A DNA stretch of 64,000 nt from Desulfobaculum xiamenense (GTDB lineage Bacteria; Desulfobacterota; Desulfovibrionia; Desulfovibrionales; Desulfovibrionaceae), in assembly GCF_011927665.1 (NCBI RefSeq), contig NZ_JAATJA010000002.1:620001-684000 (forward strand). The letters run 5' to 3'. The translations under genes and the position numbers were made by a program. Shown here in pieces: positions 38,203 to 61,959 of the stretch (position 1 is its first letter; each line of letters starts with the position of its first letter). Under the pieces are notes generated by a model that saw nothing but the letters and a program-made list of their open reading frames with translations, was not told the origin of the DNA and ran no database searches.

Positions 38203-38293
38203 GGAGAGGTGGCCGAGCTGGCTGAAGGCGCACCCCTGCTAAGGGTGTATAGGGGGAACCCTATCGAGAGTTCAAATCTCTCCCTCTCCGCCA
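38203..38293 (+). tRNA. tRNA-Ser (anticodon GCT)
   Basis: A 91-nt class II tRNA. The acceptor arms GGAGAGG and CCTCTCC pair, the discriminator is G and CCA is encoded. The anticodon loop reads CTGCTAA with anticodon GCT, there is a long variable arm, and the T arm contains GTTCAAATC. It reads AGC/AGU serine codons. Confidence 0.96.
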
Positions 38294-38436: not shown

Positions 38437-38724
38437 ATGGGTAAGAAAAAGGATACATGGAGAGCGTTTGCGGCGCGGCATCATTTGAAGGTAGAGCATG
38501 GGGCATGGCGTGATGGAGGGGCGTGGTTTCATCCTCTAAAAGCGTTTCCGGCTTTTTTGGGGGATGAAGGTGGATACGTTTGGTTTGAAACAAAGCAAGA
38601 GTATGAAAATGCTGGGAAAGCTGGGTACATTAGAATCGGTGTGGAAATAAATGTGCCCAAGGGTATTAGACATATTCCAGGTTATATTAAAATTATGAAG
38701 GACTTCGAACAAAAATACGATTGA
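38437..38724 (+). CDS. Small protein of unknown function, AT-rich
   Basis: A 95-residue basic protein with no signal peptide or membrane segment. It contains a Trp/Gly-rich centre and a C-terminal block ending IPGYIKIMKDFEQKYD. I do not recognise the family. The ATG at 38437 has TAGGAG 10 nt upstream. Codon usage is much AT-richer than the flanking genes, and it lies directly behind the tRNA-Ser, a common landing site for integrated DNA, so recent acquisition is likely. A terminator follows. Confidence 0.6.
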   Translation: MGKKKDTWRAFAARHHLKVEHGAWRDGGAWFHPLKAFPAFLGDEGGYVWFETKQEYENAGKAGYIRIGVEINVPKGIRHIPGYIKIMKDFEQKYD

Positions 38725-38795: not shown

Positions 38796-38975
38796 TGTAT
38801 TTTTCGATGGGATTTTTGGGCGTTGGCGTTTGGGCGCTGTTTTCAGGGTGCATCTGCGCCGACGGGGAGTGCGTAAGCGTAGTTGCGGTTGCACCTGTCG
38901 ATGGGGCGTGCGTTTCGCGGTACAACTCCAAGCTTTGAAGGCCGCGCTGCATTTCGTTGTCGCTGACGGAAGGGA

Positions 38976-39018
38976 ACCCCCATGGTCTGCGCCTGTTGCG
39001 GCGCGGACCATGGGGGTT
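38976..39018 (-). terminator. Hairpin ending the exported-protein operon
   Basis: AACCCCCATGGTC and its complement with a further GC-rich inner stem form a very stable hairpin 13 nt past the last gene of the minus-strand cluster. The following sequence is only modestly T-rich. The rest of the 38796-39030 gap holds nothing I recognise. Confidence 0.65.
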
Positions 39019-39030
39019 GAAGCTGAGGAA

Positions 39031-40674
39031 TTACCAGACCATGTCGTCCTGGCCTGCTCCGCTGTATGCTCCACCGTTGGCTGGAGAACTCCCTGCAGGA
39101 GCCTGATGGTTTTGTTGTGTGGGGTTGTTTCCGCCTGCGGCCGTTTGATCACCGGTTGCGCTGGTTGTTTTCGCTGTCGTGTATGCGGATGTGTTGTGTT
39201 CCGCCCGGTCGATAGCCTCTTCGTGTCCTGCCTTGGTTCCCTTCGCCGTTTGCTGCGCCTTGATGTCCAGTATTCGTGAAATGTAATTGGATTCTTCCAT
39301 GAACAAGGCGTCGCGGGCAGAGCTTCCGCTGGCGGCATAAATCGCGACGTAGATATTCTGACCGGACAACGGGTGCTTGAGTACATTCCCGTATATCCTT
39401 TGGATTCCGTTTATGTGCCGGCCTTCGATGCTTTGCTTCAGCGTGGATGCATAGCTTTCCGCGGCGGCCGATGTGTCGTGTTCGGTTCCCGAATAGGTTT
39501 CCATCATCTGCTCGGCGACCTTGTGCGAGCTTACGTCTGCAAAGATGGCCGTGGCCACTTCCTTCTTGGCAATTTGTTCGGCGATGCCGCGTCCCCGTTT
39601 TTCCGAACTTGCCGAGCCGCCGACGGCTGCTGCGCCGATGCCGATGAAGTGGACCTGTCCCTGATTGTCGCGAAAACGGCGGCCGCCAGTGGACGTTGCC
39701 CAATTGTTGCCCTTGACCCACTGACTCAATGTGCATTTGCCGGGAGGAACAGGGGTGGGCTCGCCCTTGAGAAAACTGCGGACCACGGATTCCATCTTTT
39801 TGCTCCATAGCGTGATGATGGCGATACGATAGCGCTGTTCCGTTTCATCCCACGCTTCGAACTGGGCACAGGTCGTGGCTCCCAATAGGGGCATGGAGGA
39901 CATGGTTTCGACCTTGCTAGAGAGCGTTTCCTGCTTTGCGCCCTTGCGCGTCTTGAGTTCCGATTCTATGCGTTGGTAGTCGTTTTGCGCTTCGGCGTAG
40001 CGAGCTTTGACTTCCTCGTATCTCTTCTTTTTTTCATCGGCGATTTGTTGGCTTGAGTACTTGCCGTCAAGTTTTTTGATCGCCGCATCCATGAGCGCCT
40101 TGAAGCGGTCGCCGAAGGTGATTCCCTGCAGTACGTTGGCCTCCGAGGCATCGACCTCGGCCAGTAATTTCGCGACGCGAGCGCGCTGCGCTTCCATCTT
40201 GCGTTCGAGTTTGTCGAGCTCTTCCTTGAAGAGAGCATTGAGATCTGTGCCGGGGGTGCTCGCTTCATCCATGACACTCATCTCGGTGCGAATGAATTCG
40301 ATGATGCGGGACTTTCCGTCGAGAACCGCCTCCATGCTCTTCAGTGAACGCTTTGTGATGAACGTGTCGTCGTATGACGGGTCCTCGGAGTCGAAGGCCG
40401 CTTCACCGATTGAAACGTAAACTTGTTTGTCTTCATTCCATCCTTCGTAAACGCCGGAGCGCTCAAGGTACTCGTCAACCATGTCCCGGATACTTTTCTG
40501 GGGGACGACTTCCGGCGCTTGGGCTTCGGTGATTTTTTGGGTGACCTGAAGTTCTGTGCTCTGAGTCGCGTCATTGGGCGTGTATTCGACGCATTCGGCT
40601 GTACAGGGCCAGACGCAGCCGAGTGTGAGCAGGCAGAGAATCGAGCCGAGGACGAGATTCCTTGCTGGTTTCAT
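39031..40674 (-). CDS. Exported protein with two LPP20-like modules
   Basis: A 547-residue protein with a signal peptide (~1-25; LTLGC could be a lipobox). Two segments fit the LPP20-like pattern: one near 80-135 (KQVYVSIGEAAF onward) and one near 345-460 (VHFIGIGAAAVG onward). They flank a coiled-coil centre (~150-250). The C-terminal ~60 residues are low-complexity Ala/Gly/Gln/Asn. Similarity to a DUF6844-type family is possible but I cannot verify it. Its ATG overlaps the stop of the preceding gene (ATGA). It is the last gene of the six-gene operon. Function unknown; a periplasmic or outer-membrane location is inferred. Confidence 0.8.
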   Translation of the reverse strand: MKPARNLVLGSILCLLTLGCVWPCTAECVEYTPNDATQSTELQVTQKITEAQAPEVVPQKSIRDMVDEYLERSGVYEGWNEDKQVYVSIGEAAFDSEDPSYDDTFITKRSLKSMEAVLDGKSRIIEFIRTEMSVMDEASTPGTDLNALFKEELDKLERKMEAQRARVAKLLAEVDASEANVLQGITFGDRFKALMDAAIKKLDGKYSSQQIADEKKKRYEEVKARYAEAQNDYQRIESELKTRKGAKQETLSSKVETMSSMPLLGATTCAQFEAWDETEQRYRIAIITLWSKKMESVVRSFLKGEPTPVPPGKCTLSQWVKGNNWATSTGGRRFRDNQGQVHFIGIGAAAVGGSASSEKRGRGIAEQIAKKEVATAIFADVSSHKVAEQMMETYSGTEHDTSAAAESYASTLKQSIEGRHINGIQRIYGNVLKHPLSGQNIYVAIYAASGSSARDALFMEESNYISRILDIKAQQTAKGTKAGHEEAIDRAEHNTSAYTTAKTTSATGDQTAAGGNNPTQQNHQAPAGSSPANGGAYSGAGQDDMVW

Positions 40675-42087
40675 TTCGTGCAGCTCCTAAATTTTGAAGA
40701 GATTTTCAGCAAAGTCGGATTGTCGCGATCGAGATTTGCGTTGTGGGCAAAGGCGATGATGCGACGAGCGGTTTCAGTTTGCCCGAGTTCGATGTGGGCC
40801 TGTGCAAGATGACCCAGTGTTTCGGCGTCGAGCGGGTTGAAGTGGAGCATTTCGAGATACGTGAAAATGGCTTCTCGCCATTGGCGTTCAGCCATGAGGA
40901 TGGCTCCGAGATAGTCCCAGATCTCGCGGTTCGCGGGAGAGGACTCAAGCGACTTGAGGAGGAGGCGTTTCGTGGCGGGGAGGTCGGTCCCTGCGTGGAA
41001 GAGCCGTTTTGCCTCGTCGAATTCGGACGTGGATGCGCTGGATATGTCGTCTCCGAAGCGTAGCCCCCCAAGTGAGGTGTATGCAGTCGTGAATACGTTG
41101 CCGTCTGGTGCATGGGGCGATGTCCGAGCAAGGCTGGCAAAGTCGCGGTCGTTTCCGGTCAGCGCGATCATCTTGTTGATAAGTTTGGAGTGCGCCTGCC
41201 CACTGTCGGCCAGCGCCAATTCAAGCAGGGCAAATGCCTGCTCCGGGATGTCAGTTCGTTCTGCAATTCGTTCGAGGACTTCGTGGCAGCCGGGCAGGAG
41301 TTCCAGTATGTCGTCATTCGGTTGCAGATGGCCCTCCAGGAGTGCGCGGAGGCTTCTGCGTTGTTCGAATGCGTTGGGGTGGAAGGTATAGTTTACAGTG
41401 TGTTGTGCACTGTTCATGTCCTGGAGGGCACAACGCGCGGCGAGCTGGTGCAGACCAGATTCCCAGAGGATGCACGCGAGGGTTTTGAAATCGCGGTGTC
41501 GTACGGCCTCGGACGTGATTGCGGCGAGTAGCGCCTGTGGGTTGTCTTGTTTGGACTTTGCCTCTTGGCGCAAGGAGTTGAGTTCTCGGGTGGGAATGGC
41601 GATTGCGTATCGGTAGGTTCCCCGTGAAAGCGAGTCCTCAAGGATGTGGCCAGATGTCGTGAGTGCGGAGGGCAGGCGCGTCGATCTTTCCCATTCTCGC
41701 GTGAGGAGCGTGTTGAGTCGCGCGGAAATGCCTTGATCCGTTCGAAAAGAGGGCAATGCTGTGCTGGCGATATGCTTTCGAATGAGCTTCCGAAATTCAA
41801 TCAGAGCTGCATTGTGCAGTTCTCGTCGGGTTTTTGTTTGTCTGGCGGCGGGGATTTCGATGATGAAACAGGTGCACTCCTGAAGTTGATAGGTGCCTTG
41901 TGAGCGTTCGGACAGTGTCCGTCTGTATTCGCCAGCGAGGTTCATCGCCTCGTCGGGCGGAGTGCAATGGCCCTGCCCCCCCCGCCGCAAGGCAGAGAAG
42001 GATGGCGATCACCGCTGCATACAGATGCCGAGGCATCACGCGGGGGGCAGGGCCTTTATGATGTGTTTCTGGCGCAGGCAGCTGCAT
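40671..42087 (-). CDS. TPR-containing exported protein, split by a G8 tract
   Basis: The main frame (to 40671) encodes ~430 residues ending in about three TPR-like repeats (~residues 330-425 of the joined protein), but it has no signal peptide or ribosome site. The overlapping frame from 42087 (or ATG 42036) encodes a clear signal peptide (MPRHLYAAVIAILLCLAAGG). The frames meet at eight consecutive G on the minus strand (41983-41976); seven G would join them. This could be a real mutation, phase variation or an assembly error. Without a shift, translation might begin at ATG 41945 as a cytoplasmic form. It starts 4 nt after the CsgG-like gene and overlaps the next start. Confidence 0.65.
41976..41983 (-). 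repeat. Homopolymer G8 tract at signal-peptide junction
   Basis: Eight C on the plus strand (eight G in the mRNA sense). It lies exactly where the signal-peptide frame must switch to the TPR frame. It is a candidate slipped-strand site. Confidence 0.8.
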
Positions 42088-42091
42088 GTTG

Positions 42092-43390
42092 CTACCAGTC
42101 GTTTTCGGTTTGCTTTTTGAAGTCGGCGGTCTTTTTCTTCATTTCCGCCTTTCGGTTTTCAAACTTTTTCTTTGCGGCCTGCTGGGCCTGCCCCGGATTT
42201 GCCTTCATGGGGCGGACAATGAACCGGCTCGATTGGAAGTCCTGTTCGATATTTGCGGAGCACTTGATGATGTTGGCGCGGGAGGTCTTGGGTTGGACAT
42301 CCACAACTTCAAGGGTGCCGACCTCAATTTCTTCGGCTCCAAGTACTTCCTTGGTGTAGGGATCCGTCAGCATTTTGCCCAGTTTGATGAGGCGCAGCCT
42401 CTGACCATTGCGGAGCGTGTCGCCGCCCTGGCCGAGGACGACGGATTTTCCAGATGCCGAGACGACGCGGACGGGCGCGATGGCCTCAATGAGCTGTGCG
42501 CCCATGGCGCTGGCGGCTTGTTGAGCCATCTGTGCTGCGGATGGGGGATTGCCTTCTGCTGTCTTGATGTTGCTGAAGACTTTCGAATAAGTGACCTGGC
42601 CTGTCGCAACATCGATGACCCTGAGGGAAATTTCAGTGCCGTATTTGCATTCGGGGAATTTGCGCCCGGTGCTCTTCATGGTCTTGTACCATGCGTCCCG
42701 AACAATCTGATTCACCTGTCCGACAACGATGAAGTCTGCACCGAGGGTGTTGCCGAGTTTGGCCATCTCTTGCATGGGGGCGTCGCTTTGCTTGAGGAAG
42801 TCGACTTCTTTCTGATGTTCGGCAAGGAAGTCTCTGTCAAGAATGGCAAAACGACGAGTTTGGGTCAGATAGCTCGTAAGGTTGTGTCCGTATGTTTCGG
42901 CAAACTGGGCGGATCCGTCGGCCTTTGCCGCTACACGGAAAGGGATCACGGCAAGGCGCATCCGGTTGCTTTCGGGGGACGCCTTGTATTTGGCGATTTG
43001 TGCGTCTACGGCAACATGCCAAATTCCGGGACGGGCAGGGTCCTCGTTGCATGACAAAATCGTGTAGCTGCTGACGAGTCCTTTTGTTTTGGTTGCGACG
43101 TCCTGCTGGAAGGATTCCTGTGACATTTCTGCGGAAACGTTGGCCTTCCTTCCGTTGACGGCTACGGTGGCGTCAGTCTTGACTGAAGAGAATGAGGCGG
43201 CAGACTCGGATGCCATCTGCATCCCGTTTACCTGACTGATGGCTTGCGTCAGGGCGTCATACAGTGCCGCTTTGGCTGATTCGCCTTCGCCTTCGCCGTG
43301 AGCAGTCACCATTTCGACCTTTGCGTGCGCGTTCAGAGCGGGCAGGCAGAAGAGGGCCACGAGCAACGCGCAAAAGATTCTTCTGATCAT
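42092..43390 (-). CDS. CsgG/FlgT-like exported protein
   Basis: A 432-residue protein with a Sec signal peptide (~1-23). Residues ~25-135 look like a FlgT-N/LPP20-type module; ~145-330 carry a CsgG-like fold (RRFAILDRDF, LGADFIVVGQVNQI, GTEISLRVIDVATG). A Lys-rich tail follows ~400. CsgG relatives form outer-membrane or periplasmic oligomers in curli export, holdfast anchoring and the Vibrio flagellar FlgT ring; there is no lipobox, so FlgT is the closer analogue. GAGG precedes ATG 43390. Confidence 0.8.
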   Translation of the reverse strand: MIRRIFCALLVALFCLPALNAHAKVEMVTAHGEGEGESAKAALYDALTQAISQVNGMQMASESAASFSSVKTDATVAVNGRKANVSAEMSQESFQQDVATKTKGLVSSYTILSCNEDPARPGIWHVAVDAQIAKYKASPESNRMRLAVIPFRVAAKADGSAQFAETYGHNLTSYLTQTRRFAILDRDFLAEHQKEVDFLKQSDAPMQEMAKLGNTLGADFIVVGQVNQIVRDAWYKTMKSTGRKFPECKYGTEISLRVIDVATGQVTYSKVFSNIKTAEGNPPSAAQMAQQAASAMGAQLIEAIAPVRVVSASGKSVVLGQGGDTLRNGQRLRLIKLGKMLTDPYTKEVLGAEEIEVGTLEVVDVQPKTSRANIIKCSANIEQDFQSSRFIVRPMKANPGQAQQAAKKKFENRKAEMKKKTADFKKQTENDW

Positions 43391-43452
43391 CGTAACCTCG
43401 AAGGGGGATGGCGGCCGCCGAAGCCGGTGGCGTTTCGACGACCGCCGAACTG

Positions 43453-44130
43453 TTACAGGTCGCCGAGGGCGTCCTCGGCATTGGATACTTCAAGATCGTT
43501 GCTCTTGCAGAAGGCGATGAGCTCGCCTGTCGTGCCAGCCATCTGGCTGCCCAGCGTCGGAATCTTGGGACCCACGTTCATGCCGAAATCGAACTTCGAC
43601 TTGAGGGAGCACAGCGCGGTCGGGGCGGCTTCGGCAAGGGCGTCCTTCGCCTTGGATATCCACTGGGCGAAGTCCTTGCCGACCTTGACCGTCAGTGCGC
43701 TACCCTTGGCATATGGGACGAGTGCCTCGGCCAGCTTCTTCTTGCTTTCCGCGTCGAGGGAATTGTAGCTTTTCTGCTTTTCCTGAATGTTCTTGTCGTT
43801 TTCCTCGGTGGTGGCCACCGCGCGTTCGACGTCCTCGTCCTGGACGTTGCCCGATTGCAGGGTATCGATCAGCACTTTTGTTTGAGCCGCCATTTCCTTG
43901 TCCTGAACGGCCACGGCAATCTGGTTCTGTGCGTCCAGCAGCTCGGAGAGTGCAGCGACCAGATCCTTTTTGATGGATTCCTGTTCGCTGCTCAGCGCCT
44001 GCGTGTCGTGCTTTTCCGTGGATGCCAAAGGATTGGCCGCGCCCACGGAAGGGAGGTTGAATGCGAGCGCACGGTGGGTCGGTGCGACGAGCAGCAGTCC
44101 TGCGATAGTGAGCGTGATGAGTTTCTTCAT
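43453..44130 (-). CDS. Exported helical protein of unknown function
   Basis: A 225-residue protein with a signal peptide (~1-23), then a largely helical, charged region (~50-160) with coiled-coil character and a C-terminal part with two cysteines (near 187 and 207) that could form a disulfide. I do not recognise it. GAGGAAAA lies upstream of ATG 44130. It is the third gene of the operon, 15 nt after its predecessor and 62 bp before the CsgG-like gene. Confidence 0.72.
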   Translation of the reverse strand: MKKLITLTIAGLLLVAPTHRALAFNLPSVGAANPLASTEKHDTQALSSEQESIKKDLVAALSELLDAQNQIAVAVQDKEMAAQTKVLIDTLQSGNVQDEDVERAVATTEENDKNIQEKQKSYNSLDAESKKKLAEALVPYAKGSALTVKVGKDFAQWISKAKDALAEAAPTALCSLKSKFDFGMNVGPKIPTLGSQMAGTTGELIAFCKSNDLEVSNAEDALGDL

Positions 44131-44145
44131 GATGGTTTTCCTCGA

Positions 44146-45243
44146 TTAGTTGATTTTCTTGGCGTTCATCTGGTCCACGATGGTGGTGGCTGCTTCTGCA
44201 GCCGCCTTGCGCAGGGCGTTGCGCTTGGCGACGACGGCATCGGGGCCGAGTCCCGCGTACTGTATGGGACCCACGGCTGCGACCTTGCGAGGAAGCCGAC
44301 CGGAAATGTTCCAGACGTTGGCGTTGACGGAGACGTAGACGCGTTTCATTCCGCTGACGGGGTCGATGTCGTTGATGCCGACATCCAGCGTTCCTGTGGC
44401 GAAGAACTGGATTTCGCACATCCGGCAGCCGTTGATGGCCTCGCGGCGCGTCTCGTTGGAGAGCTCGCTACCGCAAGCGTATTCGTCCTTGATGGTGTTG
44501 AAATCCGCCCCACCGCATTCACTCAGCACGTCGCGATAGTCGACGACTTCGAATCCTGCGGGGGAGAGAATTTCATTCATTGCCGAATCGACGTCGCTTG
44601 AACTCGAAACGGTGTAGGCGATCTTGTCGGCCTTCTTCTCGACGTTTCCACCGGTAACGGTCTTCTTCATGGATTCCTTGCTGACCGCTTCGGCAGCACT
44701 CCCGCCGTGGCTGGCCGCAGATTCTTCGACAGTGCCGACTTCCTGGGACATCTCGACACTTGTTTCCTTGTCCTTGAAGCTTTTTACGGAGCTCGTTTCA
44801 CGGGCGAGGAATACGAAGCTAAAGAGGCTGCCTTCGCCAGTCGCGTTCGATCCTGCTGCGGAGAATTCGGAGAGCTTCGTCTCTACTGCGACGTCATTGA
44901 TGGTGATCTTGACGCCAACGGTATAGACGAGGTTGTCCGTGTCCGTCTTTTCTTCAAGAATGTTGCAGCTAGAAATGTAGGTGTCCATGGCACCGGTGAA
45001 GGCGTTTTCATTGTCGGAGTACAACTTGTACTTCGGCTTGCTGAACTTCGAGACGTAGCGTTTCCATGCGCTGAGCTTTGCATCTTCCAGAGCCTTACTC
45101 TTGACCTCTTTGGTCGGCTCCTTCGAGAAGGCGTGCTTCTCATATGTGATGCGTGCGGAGCCGATGGAGGATGTCTCGGCAAAGCTTATGCCCGGAACTG
45201 CAATCAGTAGCGCGATGATGAAGAATTGAAGAAGCGTTTTCAT
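44146..45243 (-). CDS. Exported protein with FlgT-N/LPP20-like N-terminus
   Basis: A 365-residue protein with a signal peptide (~1-22). Residues ~28-125 follow the pattern of FlgT-N/LPP20 modules (Ala-rich helix, then a strand ending in VGVKITINDVAV). A Ser-rich middle follows, with a second alpha/beta module from ~195 and four cysteines that could pair. The last ~50 residues return to an Ala-rich helix. Function unknown. It starts 7 nt after the upstream stop. Confidence 0.75.
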   Translation of the reverse strand: MKTLLQFFIIALLIAVPGISFAETSSIGSARITYEKHAFSKEPTKEVKSKALEDAKLSAWKRYVSKFSKPKYKLYSDNENAFTGAMDTYISSCNILEEKTDTDNLVYTVGVKITINDVAVETKLSEFSAAGSNATGEGSLFSFVFLARETSSVKSFKDKETSVEMSQEVGTVEESAASHGGSAAEAVSKESMKKTVTGGNVEKKADKIAYTVSSSSDVDSAMNEILSPAGFEVVDYRDVLSECGGADFNTIKDEYACGSELSNETRREAINGCRMCEIQFFATGTLDVGINDIDPVSGMKRVYVSVNANVWNISGRLPRKVAAVGPIQYAGLGPDAVVAKRNALRKAAAEAATTIVDQMNAKKIN

Positions 45244-45250
45244 TGTGAAC

Positions 45251-46423
45251 CTACATGCACTTTTGGATGGTTTTCTCGAATTCCTCGAACTGTTTTCGTG
45301 TCTTCTCGCCCTCAGCCGAATTCTTGAGCCATTTTCCGTCCTGTTCATGAATTTCCTGCGTCGTCTTGTTGAACAGGCTGAGCAGGCTTTCCTGGAAGGC
45401 CGAGAAGTCGGATGCAGTTGCTTGGCTTTTTGGAACGATTTTTACGGCTGCATTCTTGAGCTTCGTGTCCACCATGGATTCCTGCAGGATGGAATCGACT
45501 CGAAGTCTGGCGAAACATCCGTATGCCCAGGATGTTCCGGTGACATTCTCGTCGAGTTTGACTTTCTTGAAACCGCGAATGGTTAGTTCGATGGGGTAGT
45601 CCGCTTCGGGGATATCCAATTGGAAGACGTCACCGTTTGCGAAACGGCCCGCCATCTTTCCGCCGATGGCTTGGCCCTTGGTGTAGGGGAGGATGCTTGC
45701 GTTGAGATTCTTTGAAAATGCCGAACTGAACTGCTGAGCGACAAAGGTCTTGTACGCGGCGATGGGGGTGCCGTTTGATTGGCTTGCCCAGAAATCCTCG
45801 GCTTTTTGCTCAAGAGTGACGTTTTGCACCTTGAATGTGCAGATGGCGTCTCCCGTGTTCAGCCGTACGTGGGAAAGTGCGGTGCATGCTTCGTCGAAGA
45901 AGTTGATTCCGCCGATGTTACCGAGGTACAGATTTCTGATTATCCCAAGTTTTTTATCTTCAGTGGGTTCTGTATCCGAGGAATCCGTAACGCGAGTACC
46001 GAAAGGATAGCATGCTATGATTTCCATTTTTGAGAAATCGAATAGCAGTATTTGCCCGTGCAGGTTGTATACTGTCTTGAAGAGGTTGTCCTCAAGCTGT
46101 TCTGTAGAGACGTCTTCCCAGTCTAGTGCAATAGCTACCGAGATGCTTTCGCCATGTTTCAGATCTCCAAGGCTTGTAAATTGTAATTCGATATTCTTGT
46201 TGTCTACAGTTTGAGCCTTTTTGATGAGTGAAGTTTCAAGTAGTGATCTTTCGGCGTCAAGCTCTTTAATTATTACGCCTGTATAAGGATAGTTGCTTGA
46301 AATAAACTGGTGGTCACCGAGGAATGCAAACCCTGCGTAATAAACAGGTGTCGCAAATGCGTATGTGTTAGTAAAAAGAACTATGGCAATAACAAGGAAA
46401 AATTCTGTTATTTTTCTGTGCAT
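45251..46423 (-). CDS. Exported protein of unknown function, first gene of cluster
   Basis: A 390-residue protein with a signal peptide (~1-24) and a mainly beta-rich body. Residues ~195-330 resemble the other exported proteins in being strand-rich with scattered Cys. The C-terminal ~60 residues are helical and charged. GAGGAG precedes ATG 46423. Its 5' half is clearly AT-richer than the chromosome average here, suggesting foreign origin. No family recognised. Confidence 0.72.
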   Translation of the reverse strand: MHRKITEFFLVIAIVLFTNTYAFATPVYYAGFAFLGDHQFISSNYPYTGVIIKELDAERSLLETSLIKKAQTVDNKNIELQFTSLGDLKHGESISVAIALDWEDVSTEQLEDNLFKTVYNLHGQILLFDFSKMEIIACYPFGTRVTDSSDTEPTEDKKLGIIRNLYLGNIGGINFFDEACTALSHVRLNTGDAICTFKVQNVTLEQKAEDFWASQSNGTPIAAYKTFVAQQFSSAFSKNLNASILPYTKGQAIGGKMAGRFANGDVFQLDIPEADYPIELTIRGFKKVKLDENVTGTSWAYGCFARLRVDSILQESMVDTKLKNAAVKIVPKSQATASDFSAFQESLLSLFNKTTQEIHEQDGKWLKNSAEGEKTRKQFEEFEKTIQKCM

Positions 46424-46885: not shown

Positions 46886-48700
46886 ATGTACGACATCACT
46901 CGCGGCGCTCTGCGCCTGTGCGTGGCGTGTCTGGCCGTGGTCTTCTGCGCCGTCCTGCCGCCTGCGCGGGATGCTTTCTGCTCGACCAACGCCACCGCGC
47001 CCGAACGCCTGACCATCACCATCGGCGGAGATCTGCACTATCCGCCCTACGAATTCCTTGACGCGCTCGGCGAGCCGAACGGCTTCAACGTCGAGCTTTC
47101 CCGTGCCCTCGCGCGTGTGACCGGGATCAATGTCCAGATCCGCCTCGGCCTGTGGCAGAACATGCGCGAGGCCCTCGACAAGGGCGAGATCGACGTGTTG
47201 CAGGGCATTTCGCATTCCGCGGAGCGCGCCCAGAAAATCCGCTTCTCGGACCCCTACACCACGGTGGAATACTCCATCTTCGCCCGCGAGGATTCGCCCA
47301 TGGCCGCGTCGCTTGCCGATATGGCGGGACGGGCCGTCCTCGTGGAGGAGGGCGGAGCCATGTTTGACATGCTGCGGCGCTTCTACCCGCGCATCAGCGT
47401 GTCCCCGGCCTACAATCATGAGAACGCCCTGCGCCGCCTCGCCGCCGGACACGGCGACTTCGCGCTGGTCTCCAAGACCGCGGGCAAGTACATGATCCAG
47501 ATGAACGGCCTCAAGGGCATTCGCCCCGTGGGGACGCCCATTTCGCTTGAGCGCTACTGCTACGCCACCACCCCGGACAAGGAGCAGCTTCTGGAGCTGG
47601 TGAACAGCGGTCTCGAAATGCTCAAGGCCAACGGCACCTATGCGGAACTGTGCGAAAAGTGGCTGGTGGTGCCGGAGCCGGATAAGATTTCATGGGCCGA
47701 TGTCTTTCGCTACGGCGCGCTCATCCTCGTGCCGCTGCTGCTCATTCTCGTTGGCAGTCTCGTCTGGTCGCGGATGCTCCAGCGCAAGGTGGCCGAGCGT
47801 ACGCACGAGTTGCAACTGGAAATTGCCCGCCACCTCGAGGCCAAGAAGGAACTGGAGCGCAAGCAGAAGGTCATCATCCATTCCGACCGCATGGCCACCC
47901 TCGGCGTGATGGCGTCGGGCATCGCTCACGAGATCAACAATCCCAATGGGACGATGCTCATGAACCTCCCCATCATGCTCGATTCCTTTGAGGACGCACT
48001 GGAGGTGCTTGACGTCTACTACGAGGAGAACGGCGATTTCCTCATGGGCGGGCTGCCGTATTCGCGCATGCGTAACGAGATTCCCCAGATGCTGACCGAC
48101 ATGATGGAAGGGGCGCAGCGCATCAAGCATATCGTCCATGACCTCAAGGATTTCTCCCGCAAGGGCGAGCAGGCCGACATGGAACGCCTCGACATGAACC
48201 ACGTGGTGGAAGCGTCACTGCGGCTGGTGAACAACGCCATCCGAAAGTCCACCAACGCCTTCACCCTGTCGTTGGGATCGGACCTGCCGCCGGTCTTCGG
48301 TAGCTCGCGGCGCATTCAGCAGGTCGTCGTCAATCTGATTCTCAACGCGTGTCAGGCCCTGCCGGACACGAGCCGCGCACTCACCGTGGCCACCAGCTAC
48401 GACGAGGGCATCAATGCCGTCACCCTTCAGGTGATCGACGAGGGCGTCGGCATTTCGGCCAAGCATCTCGACAACATCACCGATCCCTTCTTCACCACCA
48501 AGCGCGAGTCCGGCGGTACCGGGCTCGGGCTGTCCGTGTCGGCGGGAATCGTCAAGGAGCATTTCGGCGCGCTGGACTTCGAGTCCACGCCCGGAAAGGG
48601 CACCACGGTTACGCTGTCGCTACCCGCCATGACCGATGACAGCGAGGCCGGGGCAGCTTCGGCCTCGACTGGCCCGCAGCCCGATGGAGCACGCATATGA
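46886..48700 (+). CDS. Sensor histidine kinase with SBP_bac_3 periplasmic domain
   Basis: A 604-residue kinase: signal/anchor (~8-32), an amino-acid-binding-protein-like domain (~42-262, IGGDLHYPPYEFL start), one membrane helix (~275-297), coiled coil, His box (GIAHEINNPNG) and HATPase (NLILNACQAL, GTGLGLSVS). The periplasmic fold usually binds amino acids or carboxylates. Its stop overlaps the next gene's start (ATGA). Together they form a two-component system beside aspartate/fumarate genes. The start codon has a poor ribosome site. Confidence 0.93.
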   Translation: MYDITRGALRLCVACLAVVFCAVLPPARDAFCSTNATAPERLTITIGGDLHYPPYEFLDALGEPNGFNVELSRALARVTGINVQIRLGLWQNMREALDKGEIDVLQGISHSAERAQKIRFSDPYTTVEYSIFAREDSPMAASLADMAGRAVLVEEGGAMFDMLRRFYPRISVSPAYNHENALRRLAAGHGDFALVSKTAGKYMIQMNGLKGIRPVGTPISLERYCYATTPDKEQLLELVNSGLEMLKANGTYAELCEKWLVVPEPDKISWADVFRYGALILVPLLLILVGSLVWSRMLQRKVAERTHELQLEIARHLEAKKELERKQKVIIHSDRMATLGVMASGIAHEINNPNGTMLMNLPIMLDSFEDALEVLDVYYEENGDFLMGGLPYSRMRNEIPQMLTDMMEGAQRIKHIVHDLKDFSRKGEQADMERLDMNHVVEASLRLVNNAIRKSTNAFTLSLGSDLPPVFGSSRRIQQVVVNLILNACQALPDTSRALTVATSYDEGINAVTLQVIDEGVGISAKHLDNITDPFFTTKRESGGTGLGLSVSAGIVKEHFGALDFESTPGKGTTVTLSLPAMTDDSEAGAASASTGPQPDGARI

Positions 48701-50121
48701 TCAAGATCGACAATACACCGTATCCATCCTTCGGAATTCTGCTCGTGGACGACGAACTCGCATGGCTTCGCAGCCTGCGCCTGACCCTCGAACGCTCCGC
48801 GGGCATCAGCAATATCAGAACCTGTGCGGATAGCCGGCAGGTCATGGACATCCTTGACGAAGGGGGCATCGGCCTCATCCTGCTGGACCTGACTATGCCC
48901 GGCCTCGGCGGTGAGGAACTGCTTACGCTGATCGGCGAGCAGCACCAGGACATTCAGGTCATCGTCATCAGCGGTCTGAACCAGTTGGAGACCGCCGTGC
49001 GCTGTATCAAGCAGGGTGCCTTCGACTACTTCGTGAAGACCGACGCGCAGGAGCACATCACCAAGGGCGTGCTGCACGCCATTCGCACCCGCGAGATGCA
49101 GAGCGTCAACGACGGCATGCGTCAGCGCATTCTGTCGGGTGAATTGGAGAACCCGGAGGCATTTGAGGACATCGCTTCCGTGTCACCGACCATGCTCGCG
49201 GTGTTCCAGTACGTGGAGGCCGTGGCCGCAAGCTCGCAGCCTGTGCTCGTCACCGGCGAGAGTGGCGTGGGCAAGGAACTCGTGGCCAAGGCCGTCCATC
49301 AGGTCAGCGGGCGCAAGGGCCCGCTGGTGTCGGTCAACGTGGCGGGGCTGGACGACACCAGCTTTTCGGACACGCTTTTCGGGCACAAGCGCGGAGCTTT
49401 CACCGGCGCGGCCACGGCGCGGGCAGGCATGATCGAGCAGGCCTACGGCGGGACGCTGTTCCTCGACGAGATCGGCGATCTGAGCCTGCAATCGCAGGTG
49501 AAGCTTCTGCGGCTGTTGCAGGAGGGCGAATATTTCCCCCTCGGCAGCGACCGGCCAAAGCTCATGCAGGCGCGTGTGGTCGTGGCCACTCATCAGGACC
49601 TTCCGGAGAAGGTGCAGCGTGGCGAGTTCCGCAAGGACCTCTTCTACCGGCTGTGCGCGCATCATGTGCATGTGCCGCCCCTGCGCGAGCGCAAGGCCGA
49701 CATTCCGGTGCTGTTGGACAGGTTCCTCGAAGAGGCCGCGGCGGAGTTCGGCAAGCGCAAGCCCGCCATTCCCAAGGAACTGCCGGTGCATCTGTCCACC
49801 TACGCCTTTCCGGGGAACGTCCGCGAACTGCGGGGTATGGTCTTCGACGCCGTGAGCACGCACAAGGCCAAGGTGCTTTCCATGCAGAGCTTTCTCAAGG
49901 CCATGCGGCGCGAGCACGAACTCGTTGACGAGTCCGCCCTCGCGGGAGGCGGCGCGCGGCCTTTCGCTGGGTTGGAGCCGCTGCCGACCATCGCCGAGAG
50001 CACGGTCCTGCTCATCGAGGAGGCCATGGAGCGCGCCAAGGGCAACCAGACCCTCGCCGCGCGCATGCTTGGCATTTCCCAGCCCGCATTGAGCAAGCGG
50101 CTCAAGCAGCTCAAGTCGTAG
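48697..50121 (+). CDS. Sigma-54-dependent response regulator
   Basis: A 474-residue NtrC-type activator: receiver (~10-130, acceptor D64 in LLDLTMPG), AAA+ domain with Walker A GESGVGKE (187-194), the sigma-54-contact loop GAFTGA (233-238) and a FIS-type HTH at the C-terminus (NQTLAARMLGISQPALSKRL). The kinase is the preceding, overlapping gene. The first downstream gene, aspA, has a sigma-54-like promoter and an upstream dyad, its likely target. Confidence 0.95.
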   Translation: MIKIDNTPYPSFGILLVDDELAWLRSLRLTLERSAGISNIRTCADSRQVMDILDEGGIGLILLDLTMPGLGGEELLTLIGEQHQDIQVIVISGLNQLETAVRCIKQGAFDYFVKTDAQEHITKGVLHAIRTREMQSVNDGMRQRILSGELENPEAFEDIASVSPTMLAVFQYVEAVAASSQPVLVTGESGVGKELVAKAVHQVSGRKGPLVSVNVAGLDDTSFSDTLFGHKRGAFTGAATARAGMIEQAYGGTLFLDEIGDLSLQSQVKLLRLLQEGEYFPLGSDRPKLMQARVVVATHQDLPEKVQRGEFRKDLFYRLCAHHVHVPPLRERKADIPVLLDRFLEEAAAEFGKRKPAIPKELPVHLSTYAFPGNVRELRGMVFDAVSTHKAKVLSMQSFLKAMRREHELVDESALAGGGARPFAGLEPLPTIAESTVLLIEEAMERAKGNQTLAARMLGISQPALSKRLKQLKS

Positions 50122-60617: not shown

Positions 60618-60872
60618 TCAGGAGGAGCGCGCATCCTGCATGGCACGCCAGCACAGGGACGGGAAGTCCTGCTGTACGGCGAAGGCAAGACGGTAGGCGT
60701 CCTGCAGGCGCAGATTCTGGCCGGAGTTTCGGATTTTGCGGTAGGCTCCCACGGGGTCGCGATGTTCGGGAAACGCGGCGCGGGCGATGTCGGAGTGGCT
60801 GCGGCCCAGCGCGATGCGGGCGGACTCGACGGCCTCGAGGAATTGTTGTGTGAAGGCTAAGGCTTCTTGCAT
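60618..60872 (-). CDS. Small HTH-type phage regulator
   Basis: An 84-residue protein with a helix-turn-helix-like region (~22-58, LGRSHSDIARAAF then YRKIRNSGQNLRLQDAYRLA). It resembles compact phage Cro/CI-like regulators. The start ATG 60872 has no clear ribosome site and abuts the palindrome TTGGGATAATCCCAA. It is divergent from the 61002 gene across an operator cluster. Confidence 0.65.
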   Translation of the reverse strand: MQEALAFTQQFLEAVESARIALGRSHSDIARAAFPEHRDPVGAYRKIRNSGQNLRLQDAYRLAFAVQQDFPSLCWRAMQDARSS

Positions 60873-60873
60873 G

Positions 60874-60967
60874 TTGGGATAATCCCAAGATTCCGCGGGT
60901 AATGCAATAGGCGGAATGCGCCTACCGAGACGTTTTGTTACGTCTACCGTTAGGCGAAATTCGCCTG
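60874..60967. promoter_or_regulatory. Phage operator cluster
   Basis: Four dyads in 94 bp: TTGGGATAATCCCAA (60874-60888); TAGGCG-N5-CGCCTA (60908-60924); AGACGT-N6-ACGTCT (60928-60945); TAGGCG-N5-CGCCTG (60951-60967). They lie between divergent phage genes, as in lysogeny switches. Confidence 0.75.
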
Positions 60968-61001
60968 TGAATACGGAGATCGGCAGGAAGGGGGGAGAGA
61001 A

Positions 61002-61478
61002 ATGGCGGGTGTCGATGTCGAGGCCTTGGACTTTGTTCCGGTCCCCGTGGCGGGCATGCAGCTGTGCTTTGAGATGTGTGCGACGGGGCTTGTCCGGAGG
61101 TGTGGCGGTGCGCATCGGACGGGGGCGCTTCCGTGGCTCTTGCCGCATGCCCGTTCGGATGCCGACGCGACGGTTGTGTTCCGGCTGTGCGTCGGTGGGC
61201 GGACCGAGGTGCTTGAGCTTGGGCGGGTGTTCGAGGCGTTCGGGCTGGCCCGTGTGCCGCCCCCTGGCTGGCTGGACCGGGCGCGGGCGACAGTGCGCGA
61301 ACTGAACGTCCGTCACCGCGAAGAGGAGCTGGGCATGGAGCGCAGGCACCGTGTCGAGCGCGAGATCGAGGCCGAGGAGGGCGGCGAACTGCCGGAATAC
61401 ATGATGCAGGGGTGCCCGTGGGAACGCGGGATGGTCGGCGGAGACGCGGCAGGTGCCGATCCCGTCATCGGATTCTGA
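61002..61478 (+). CDS. Hypothetical phage protein
   Basis: A 158-residue cytoplasmic protein. The N-terminal half is compact and Cys/Val-rich; the C-terminal half is a charged helix (RARATVRELNVRHREEELG) followed by a disordered tail. No family recognised. GGGGGGAGAG precedes ATG 61002. It lies 16 nt before the DUF5675 gene and is probably co-transcribed with it. Confidence 0.6.
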   Translation: MAGVDVEALDFVPVPVAGMQLCFEMCATGLVRRCGGAHRTGALPWLLPHARSDADATVVFRLCVGGRTEVLELGRVFEAFGLARVPPPGWLDRARATVRELNVRHREEELGMERRHRVEREIEAEEGGELPEYMMQGCPWERGMVGGDAAGADPVIGF

Positions 61479-61494
61479 ACGAGGAGGAGACGAC

Positions 61495-61959
61495 ATGATG
61501 CTATCGGAAGGGCCGACGCTTCGGCTTGAACGGCTGGAGGACGGTGTTGCCGGGACCTTCGGCGTGCTGGTGATGGACGGGCGGGTGTGCGGCGTGACGC
61601 TGGAGCCGCCGGATCGCGGAAACCGCCGCGACGTGTCGTGCATTCCCGTCGGGCGTTACGCCTGTCGTGGGCGCGTGTCCGCGCGTTTCGGCGAAACCTT
61701 CGAGGTGCTGGACGTTCCGGGGCGGTCGGACATTCTCTTCCACGCCGGGAACACGCTGGCCGACACCCACGGGTGCATCCTGCTTGGCGAGCGGATGGGC
61801 GTGGTGGGCGGGGTGCGCGGCATCATCGGGTCGCGCCGGTCCGTCGCGGCGTTTCGTCACATGCTGACGGGCGTCATTGCTTTCACGCTGGATGTGGCTG
61901 CGCTGCCGGGAAGCCTTGGGGCACACATGCTCAACAACAACGAACAGGGGAGGTCGTGA
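61495..61959 (+). CDS. DUF5675-family phage protein
   Basis: A 154-residue protein with the family pattern: LEPPDRGNRRDVSCIPVGRY, then FGETFEVLDVPGRSDILFHAG and NTLADTHGCILLG. The conserved His/Cys suggest a small hydrolase-like fold; activity unknown. DUF5675 proteins are common near phage lysis genes. GAGGAGGAG precedes ATG 61495. Its stop overlaps the next start (TGATG). Confidence 0.82.
   Translation: MMLSEGPTLRLERLEDGVAGTFGVLVMDGRVCGVTLEPPDRGNRRDVSCIPVGRYACRGRVSARFGETFEVLDVPGRSDILFHAGNTLADTHGCILLGERMGVVGGVRGIIGSRRSVAAFRHMLTGVIAFTLDVAALPGSLGAHMLNNNEQGRS

Follow-up and report, generated by a model that had tools for sequence, protein, structure and literature searches.

What do six adjoining genes for exported proteins, bordered by a tRNA gene and scattered across few genomes, build in the cell envelope? 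The question is raised by an operon of Desulfobaculum xiamenense that occupies positions 39031-46423, on the minus strand, of a 64,000-nucleotide window (the whole stretch of DNA that was analysed, contig NZ_JAATJA010000002.1, positions 620,001 to 684,000, part of a 3.64 Mb genome). We letter the genes A to F in order of transcription. Our answer, to which we give about an even chance, is that they are a horizontally spread module building a multi-subunit periplasmic scaffold, most probably placed against the outer membrane's inner face. Computation supports the conservation of the gene set, the export signals, the fold of D (by profile) and that of B (by model); it likewise supports the homology of F to DUF6844 proteins, the conservation of a C-terminal tail, and an accessory, probably transferred state. 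The genes are as follows.

45251-46423, minus strand: gene A, 390 amino acids, exported; two tandem CsgG/LptE-type domains (residues 24-192 and 193-363) in a low-confidence model
44146-45243, minus strand: gene B, 365 amino acids, exported; modelled domains at 24-131 (Tip-alpha/LPP20-like) and 137-365 (TolB_N/CsgG/FlgT-M-like)
43453-44130, minus strand: gene C, 225 amino acids, exported; without known family
42092-43390, minus strand: gene D, 432 amino acids, exported; middle domain CsgG/LpoB; C-terminus ...ENDW
40671-42036, minus strand: gene E, tetratricopeptide repeat (TPR) protein; signal peptide and body in different frames
39031-40674, minus strand: gene F, 547 amino acids, exported; homologue of DUF6844 proteins; C-terminus ...DDMVW

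A recurring operon of six genes

An earlier note on this DNA had proposed one operon of six genes for exported products, with short or overlapping gaps and one signal peptide out of frame, and each of these points was recovered. All six open reading frames (ORFs) lie on the minus strand; the gaps measure 7 bases between A and B, 15 between B and C, 62 between C and D and about 55 between D and E if E begins at the ATG at 42036, E and F overlap by 4 bases (ATGA), and the displaced signal peptide is that of E. The operon is more than a chance arrangement, since four other genomes show the same complete order. The five intact window products (A, B, C, D and F) have hydrophobic N-termini, as do the products of seven loci and A to D of Caballeronia and Cupriavidus. 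A consensus lipobox was not found in these five window products, and among relatives one occurs only in C of a deltaproteobacterial metagenome-assembled genome (L023) and in D of Cupriavidus. Promoter-like and terminator-like sites at the locus are no commoner than in shuffled sequences. Just 3' of F, at 38975-39018, lies a long, near-perfect hairpin without a T run (by eye), a possible transcript end.

The gene set extends beyond this strain to a second genus, to Geothermobacter and to Betaproteobacteria. Searching 59 relatives with D returned five genomes, our own included; G008 (locus L009) carries the complete set in unchanged order, with identities of 29-55%. B occurs in 6 of 288 genomes of the family, again counting its own, which rules out a family-wide trait. 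Four of these six belong to one other genus (L009, L020, L021, L022) and keep the order A-B-C-D-E-F at 29-56% identity; with the window, five genomes in all show this order. A was found in 4 of the 17 genomes of that second genus. Farther out, B matched 4 of 395 genomes in a phylum sample (its own, G607 as a strong new match, and two weak matches at domain level), and a class-level search of 277 genomes returned G607 again with one weak match, G858. Scanning genome contigs with B located two loci, one in Deltaproteobacteria isolate Iy174_bin43 (L023) and one in Geothermobacter hydrogeniphilus HR-1 (L027, G607); the same scan with D confirmed none. The order in L023 is rearranged: B-C-F-E-D follow the terminal part of A, which lies at the edge of the contig. 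In Geothermobacter, A-B-C-D are contiguous, D is fused to an extra N-terminal domain, and after the four genes comes a short protein that shares 52% identity with this domain.

Plasmids carry the set as well. Among 72,556 plasmid records, A and B each match three, namely Caballeronia sp. SBC2 (pSBC2-3) and two megaplasmid records of Cupriavidus metallidurans; D matches the same three and an Azospirillum plasmid, and F matches none. A-B-C-D are contiguous in C. metallidurans CH34, and the Caballeronia locus reads D, a short partner gene, a small gene, A, B, C. The module is rare and accessory, and is found also on plasmid records of Betaproteobacteria. A phage module is ruled out, with A unmatched in phage records and viral contigs yielding no confirmed relative of B. 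Weak matches of B at L028 and L029 were discounted as similarity at domain level. In G858 (L033/L053; L053:7434-11484), three products are encoded together, a B-like protein into which a long Ser/Ala-rich stretch is inserted, a relative of C and a short protein ending in VRDF; they are perhaps a distant version of the module.

Folds of the products and a shared C-terminal tail

D matches two Pfam families, CsgG (PF03783, 1.8e-7, 31.1 bits against a cut-off of 20.8) and LpoB (PF13036, 5.2e-7, 30.1 bits against 22.3); each is matched by eight of the nine members of the D family, window D among them. Weak FlgT_M (best 0.0026) and FlgT_C (best 0.033) matches appear in three of the nine members each, and neither in window D. 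A profile search of the PDB with D gave no solid match: a LysM protein scored 5.8e-4, across two weak segments, and TsaP 0.54. By our own reading, D may have a FlgT-like domain layout.

B has no significant Pfam match, and its fold is read from an AF2 model (pLDDT 75.1) through structural alignments by VIA. The second domain aligns with TolB (4pwz; Z 11.2, 3.0 Å, 125 residues), PelC (5t0z; Z 10.4, 3.2 Å, 133 residues) and CsgG (6lqh; Z 10.3, 4.1 Å, 142 residues). FlgT (3w1e) aligns across both domains (Z 10.3, 213 residues), with a root-mean-square deviation of 18.1 Å that implies domains at a different angle or place. The first domain, residues 24-131, aligns with Tip-alpha (2wcr; 3.6 Å, 102 aligned) at Z 7.2, within the common range; a structure search gave Lpp20 (5ok8) at E 0.058 and probability 0.95, and no Foldseek match of B lay at E <=0.001. 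A match of B to a designed protein in the profile search of the PDB (0.0029) was taken as chance. Cysteines 243 and 276 of B are both present in seven of eight sequences and both missing in Cupriavidus; being kept or lost together, they suggest a disulfide.

A is read through a weaker model, also from AF2. Its second half aligns with CsgG (6lqh; Z 10.0, 3.9 Å, 148 aligned), FlgT (Z 9.2) and PqiC (Z 9.2), and its first half (23-191) with 5tse (Z 8.5, 3.3 Å, 128 aligned). Foldseek returned nine matches at E <=0.001, comprising seven chains of LptDE structures, the LPHT ring and FlgT; the profile search of the PDB gave none. On this model a CsgG-type fold is probable for A. No Pfam family exceeds its cut-off in C, and the body of E matches TPR_17 at 3.6e-7.

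Set against the earlier note, which had named one CsgG-like protein, one TPR protein, two unrecognised proteins and at least three FlgT-N/LPP20-like modules, these results identify the first two as D and E and leave C unrecognised, while A probably leaves that class. In their models the CsgG/FlgT-M fold is common to B and, at low confidence, to A. The note had named two results as refuting, a gene set confined to this strain and structures without such folds, and neither was obtained. The modules fared worse: no window product reaches the Pfam cut-offs for LPP20 or FlgT, and the claim would now draw on the model of B and on our reading of D and F.

The same folds would suit an export channel for a substrate encoded elsewhere, in which A, B or D formed an outer-membrane ring fed by the TPR protein E. 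Caulobacter HfaB is a model for such a device, beside curli CsgG and PelB/PelC. The CsgG match of D and the resemblance of the B and A models to CsgG and PelC fit this explanation, as do two extra strands in an insert of B (160-170 and 187-197, in a low-confidence part of the model) and surface-protein genes near two related loci (a 'cell wall anchor protein' in Caballeronia and a giant Ig-like gene in Azospirillum). However, no recurring substrate-like gene was seen among the compared loci, the strands of the insert do not show (by eye) the hydrophobic alternation that a membrane hairpin would have, and the window products have no lipobox; we consider an export channel unlikely.

A further feature, absent from the earlier note, joins D and F: a tail motif, defined as a terminal F, W or Y with an acid within the three preceding residues. 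It is present in all nine core D sequences and in 14 of 16 F-type sequences, all 16 of which end in F or W; the F count leaves out L044, a weak match running off its locus, and duplicate loci. The F of Azospirillum ends in ADDF. Three of the four short partner proteins also bear the motif (L027, ADDF; L054, ADEF; L053, VRDF) and are mutually related by BLAST; the fourth, the LPP20-like gene of L023, is unrelated to them by BLAST and lacks it. The motif is absent from A (0/8), B (0/9), C (0/9) and E (0/6), and from every one of 93 background ORFs located outside the operons, a set in which 8 have F, W or Y as last residue. Because the linkers preceding the tail ends vary in both D and F, the ends look selected. 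Acidic-aromatic tails of this kind resemble docking tails such as that of SSB.

F contains a long coiled-coil-like stretch, and window F has no match to PF20891 (DUF6844) and no other Pfam match of note. Profile-profile comparison of six F members with ten DUF6844-type proteins, each set modelled on its own, gave a probability of 98.5% and E 2.7e-15 over 346 columns, and by this comparison F is homologous to DUF6844 proteins. It follows that the F-D pair also occurs in another cluster, where it adjoins LpoB and DUF1425 genes (L010) or LpoB and YcfL (Azospirillum, L056); A, B and C are unmatched in these DUF6844-type clusters (L010-L012 and L056). On the Azospirillum plasmid a giant Ig-like gene (L056:12053-19155), a possible surface substrate, lies close to the F-D/LpoB/YcfL cluster.

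This second setting, together with the LpoB match of D and the kinship of F with DUF6844-type proteins, brings up a peptidoglycan-synthesis regulator of LpoB type, of which the operon would be a version derived from the F-D pair beside LpoB and YcfL-like (DUF1425) genes. Yet D scores 17.4 bits on the NCBIfam LpoB equivalog TIGR02722, whose cut-off is 110.55, A, B and C were unmatched in the clusters just named, and there is no penicillin-binding protein among the six. We judge such a regulator very improbable.

Genomic setting and the broken frame of gene E

Two further features of the window are the following.

38203-38293, plus strand: tRNA-Ser(gct), bordering the accessory region
41976-41983, minus strand: tract of eight G at the frame break of E

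The operon has a guanine-plus-cytosine (GC) content of 0.548, against 0.642 in the rest of the window, and ends 0.7 kb from the tRNA-Ser gene. In a congener (G001) the left flank and the tRNA-Ser are conserved, no operon ORF matches the 19 kb examined, and B is unmatched in the whole genome. Integrases lie near the operon in L009 and L020 and downstream of it in Caballeronia, and the flanking genes differ (by eye) among the four loci of the second genus. Low GC, tRNA neighbour, absence from the congener, nearby integrases and differing flanks together indicate that the module is accessory and was probably transferred. A search of the window with the tRNA-Ser 3' end (25 bases, <=3 mismatches) found no second copy, and hence no attachment-site pair there.

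The region beside the tRNA is variable, the first right-hand gene with a match in the congener lying at 60618-61643. A small ORF without Pfam family occupies 38437-38724, in the low-GC stretch beside the tRNA. At 46886-50121 the operon is adjoined by a divergent sensor kinase with an SBP_bac_3 domain and a sigma-54 response regulator. A SecA-like gene lies upstream of the operon in L009 (L009:14001-15980), with a gene of 152 amino acids between.

The main frame of E runs from 40671 to 41990, and the signal-peptide frame, with its ATG at 42036, is separate from it; the change of frame coincides with the eight G, just after the signal peptide. E is one open frame in all five relatives. Such tracts are not rare in this genome (58 matches, overlapping ones counted), and the break may reflect phase variation, a fixed mutation or a reading error. 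The contrast with the five relatives could mean that the operon is inactive in this strain and that E is decaying. Against this stand the five remaining genes, which are intact, the position of the break at the G tract, so that a reading error or slippage is equally likely, and the Geothermobacter contig and the Caballeronia and Cupriavidus loci, where E is unmatched and which suggest that E may be dispensable. We leave the inactive operon only a slim chance.

A putative scaffold and its known counterparts

The CsgG/TolB-N/FlgT fold forms rings in CsgG, PelC and FlgT. A, B and D would be different proteins of this superfamily and would form stacked or concentric rings. Additional layers would come from F and, at other loci, from the short partner proteins, with C and the TPR protein E serving as adaptors. 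The tail of D and F might dock in a pocket on a neighbouring subunit and so connect the subunits. The Vibrio H-ring consists of FlgO, FlgP and FlgT (PMC6375700). In the FlgP family, ring formation correlates with the presence of inserted residues after the SHS2 helix and before the second strand, as in FlgT (PMC12222027). At the presumed equivalent of that insert D has about 48 residues, by our reading of the alignment. A stronger form of the proposal is a mobile, self-contained multi-ring machine apart from flagella, pili and curli, in which coaxial or concentric rings of CsgG/FlgT fold would be locked by common acidic-aromatic plug-in tails; we offer it tentatively, with the balance tilted against it.

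Several observations weigh against a scaffold. Oligomerisation of the products is a prediction from their fold family. Profile comparisons of B with D, F with D, F with B, A with D and A with B gave no significant similarity. Confidence in the model of A is low, with a pLDDT of 59.9 against 38-52 for the four other models from that prediction, and the model of B shows helices, and no beta-hairpin, in the insert of the first domain. The window proteins have no lipobox, which leaves membrane attachment unexplained, and the frame of E is broken in this strain. The tail counts come from related sequences, which are not independent, and so amount to no probability; in the six D relatives of the DUF6844-type clusters the acid is absent (0/6), and three end in W and three without an aromatic residue.

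The earlier note had likened the set to a ring, export or anchoring device and had suggested an undescribed envelope system. What stands of the first is the fold kinship of D, of B and, at low confidence, of A; ring, location and substrate are conjectural parts of the likeness. As for the second, the components are of known fold families and a description of their combination was not found in the literature searched; the system is a rare accessory module and not a family trait. The note's remark that no known substrate or flagellar gene adjoins the set agrees with the annotation, there being no curli, flagellar or pilus family among the six products or the five annotated flank proteins.

That last result counts against a flagellar accessory ring gained by transfer in some strains and comparable with the H-ring of Vibrio (FlgO/P/T) or the basal disk of Campylobacter. 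In its favour are the weak FlgT_M and FlgT_C matches of the D family, the presence of FlgT among the model matches of A and B, and FlgI in all eight tested genomes with the module or B-C relatives. FlgI is likewise present, however, in all 13 tested genomes without the module (every one of the 21 genomes has both FlgI and secretins), which means that the module is unneeded for having a flagellum, and only 4 of the 17 members of the second genus possess the module. The test covered FlgI; FlgO, FlgP, MotX and MotY were not searched for, and it leaves room for an added flagellar role. As an explanation of the whole set, a flagellar ring seems to us quite unlikely.

If the periplasmic scaffold is real, its interest lies in where it is found. 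CsgG/FlgT/LPP20-type proteins are familiar components of flagella, curli and polysaccharide exporters, and their fold would gain a new setting in a stand-alone set that moves as one between the lineage of the window, Geothermobacter and Betaproteobacteria. The shared C-terminal motif would provide a testable docking rule for such proteins. Since Cupriavidus metallidurans CH34, a laboratory strain, has the four-gene core, function may be testable there.

Among known systems, Vibrio FlgT of the H-ring (3W1E) is approached by B, whose model aligns across FlgT's first two domains. It differs in that no flagellar neighbours are seen here, that A, B and D are separate proteins sharing an operon with C, E and F, and that the FlgT Pfam matches of the D family stay below cut-off. 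The likeness to curli CsgG lies in the above-cut-off Pfam match of D and in the CsgG-like models of A and B, but the window proteins are without lipobox and have other partner genes; with csgA, csgB, csgE and csgF absent from the six, a curli operon is ruled out. The same genome holds elsewhere (L013:8689-11214) a gene group of CsgG, a small protein, DUF4810 and a GNA1162-like gene; from CsgG-DUF4810-GNA1162 lipoprotein operons the six-gene operon differs in its partner genes and in having no lipoboxes. PelC/PelB is matched by the PelC-like model of B and by a TPR partner, but no polysaccharide synthase is present among the six and no barrel domain is recognised in E. With the SHS2-like proteins LPP20, FlgP and Tip-alpha the likeness is that of B 24-131 to Tip-alpha, at a Z within the common range, whereas PF02169 is unmatched by the window proteins and the two matches in the genome lie elsewhere. 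The DUF6844 (PF20891)-LpoB-YcfL cluster differs in lacking matches to A, B and C, and window F has no PF20891 match, but there too a homologue of F adjoins a homologue of D.

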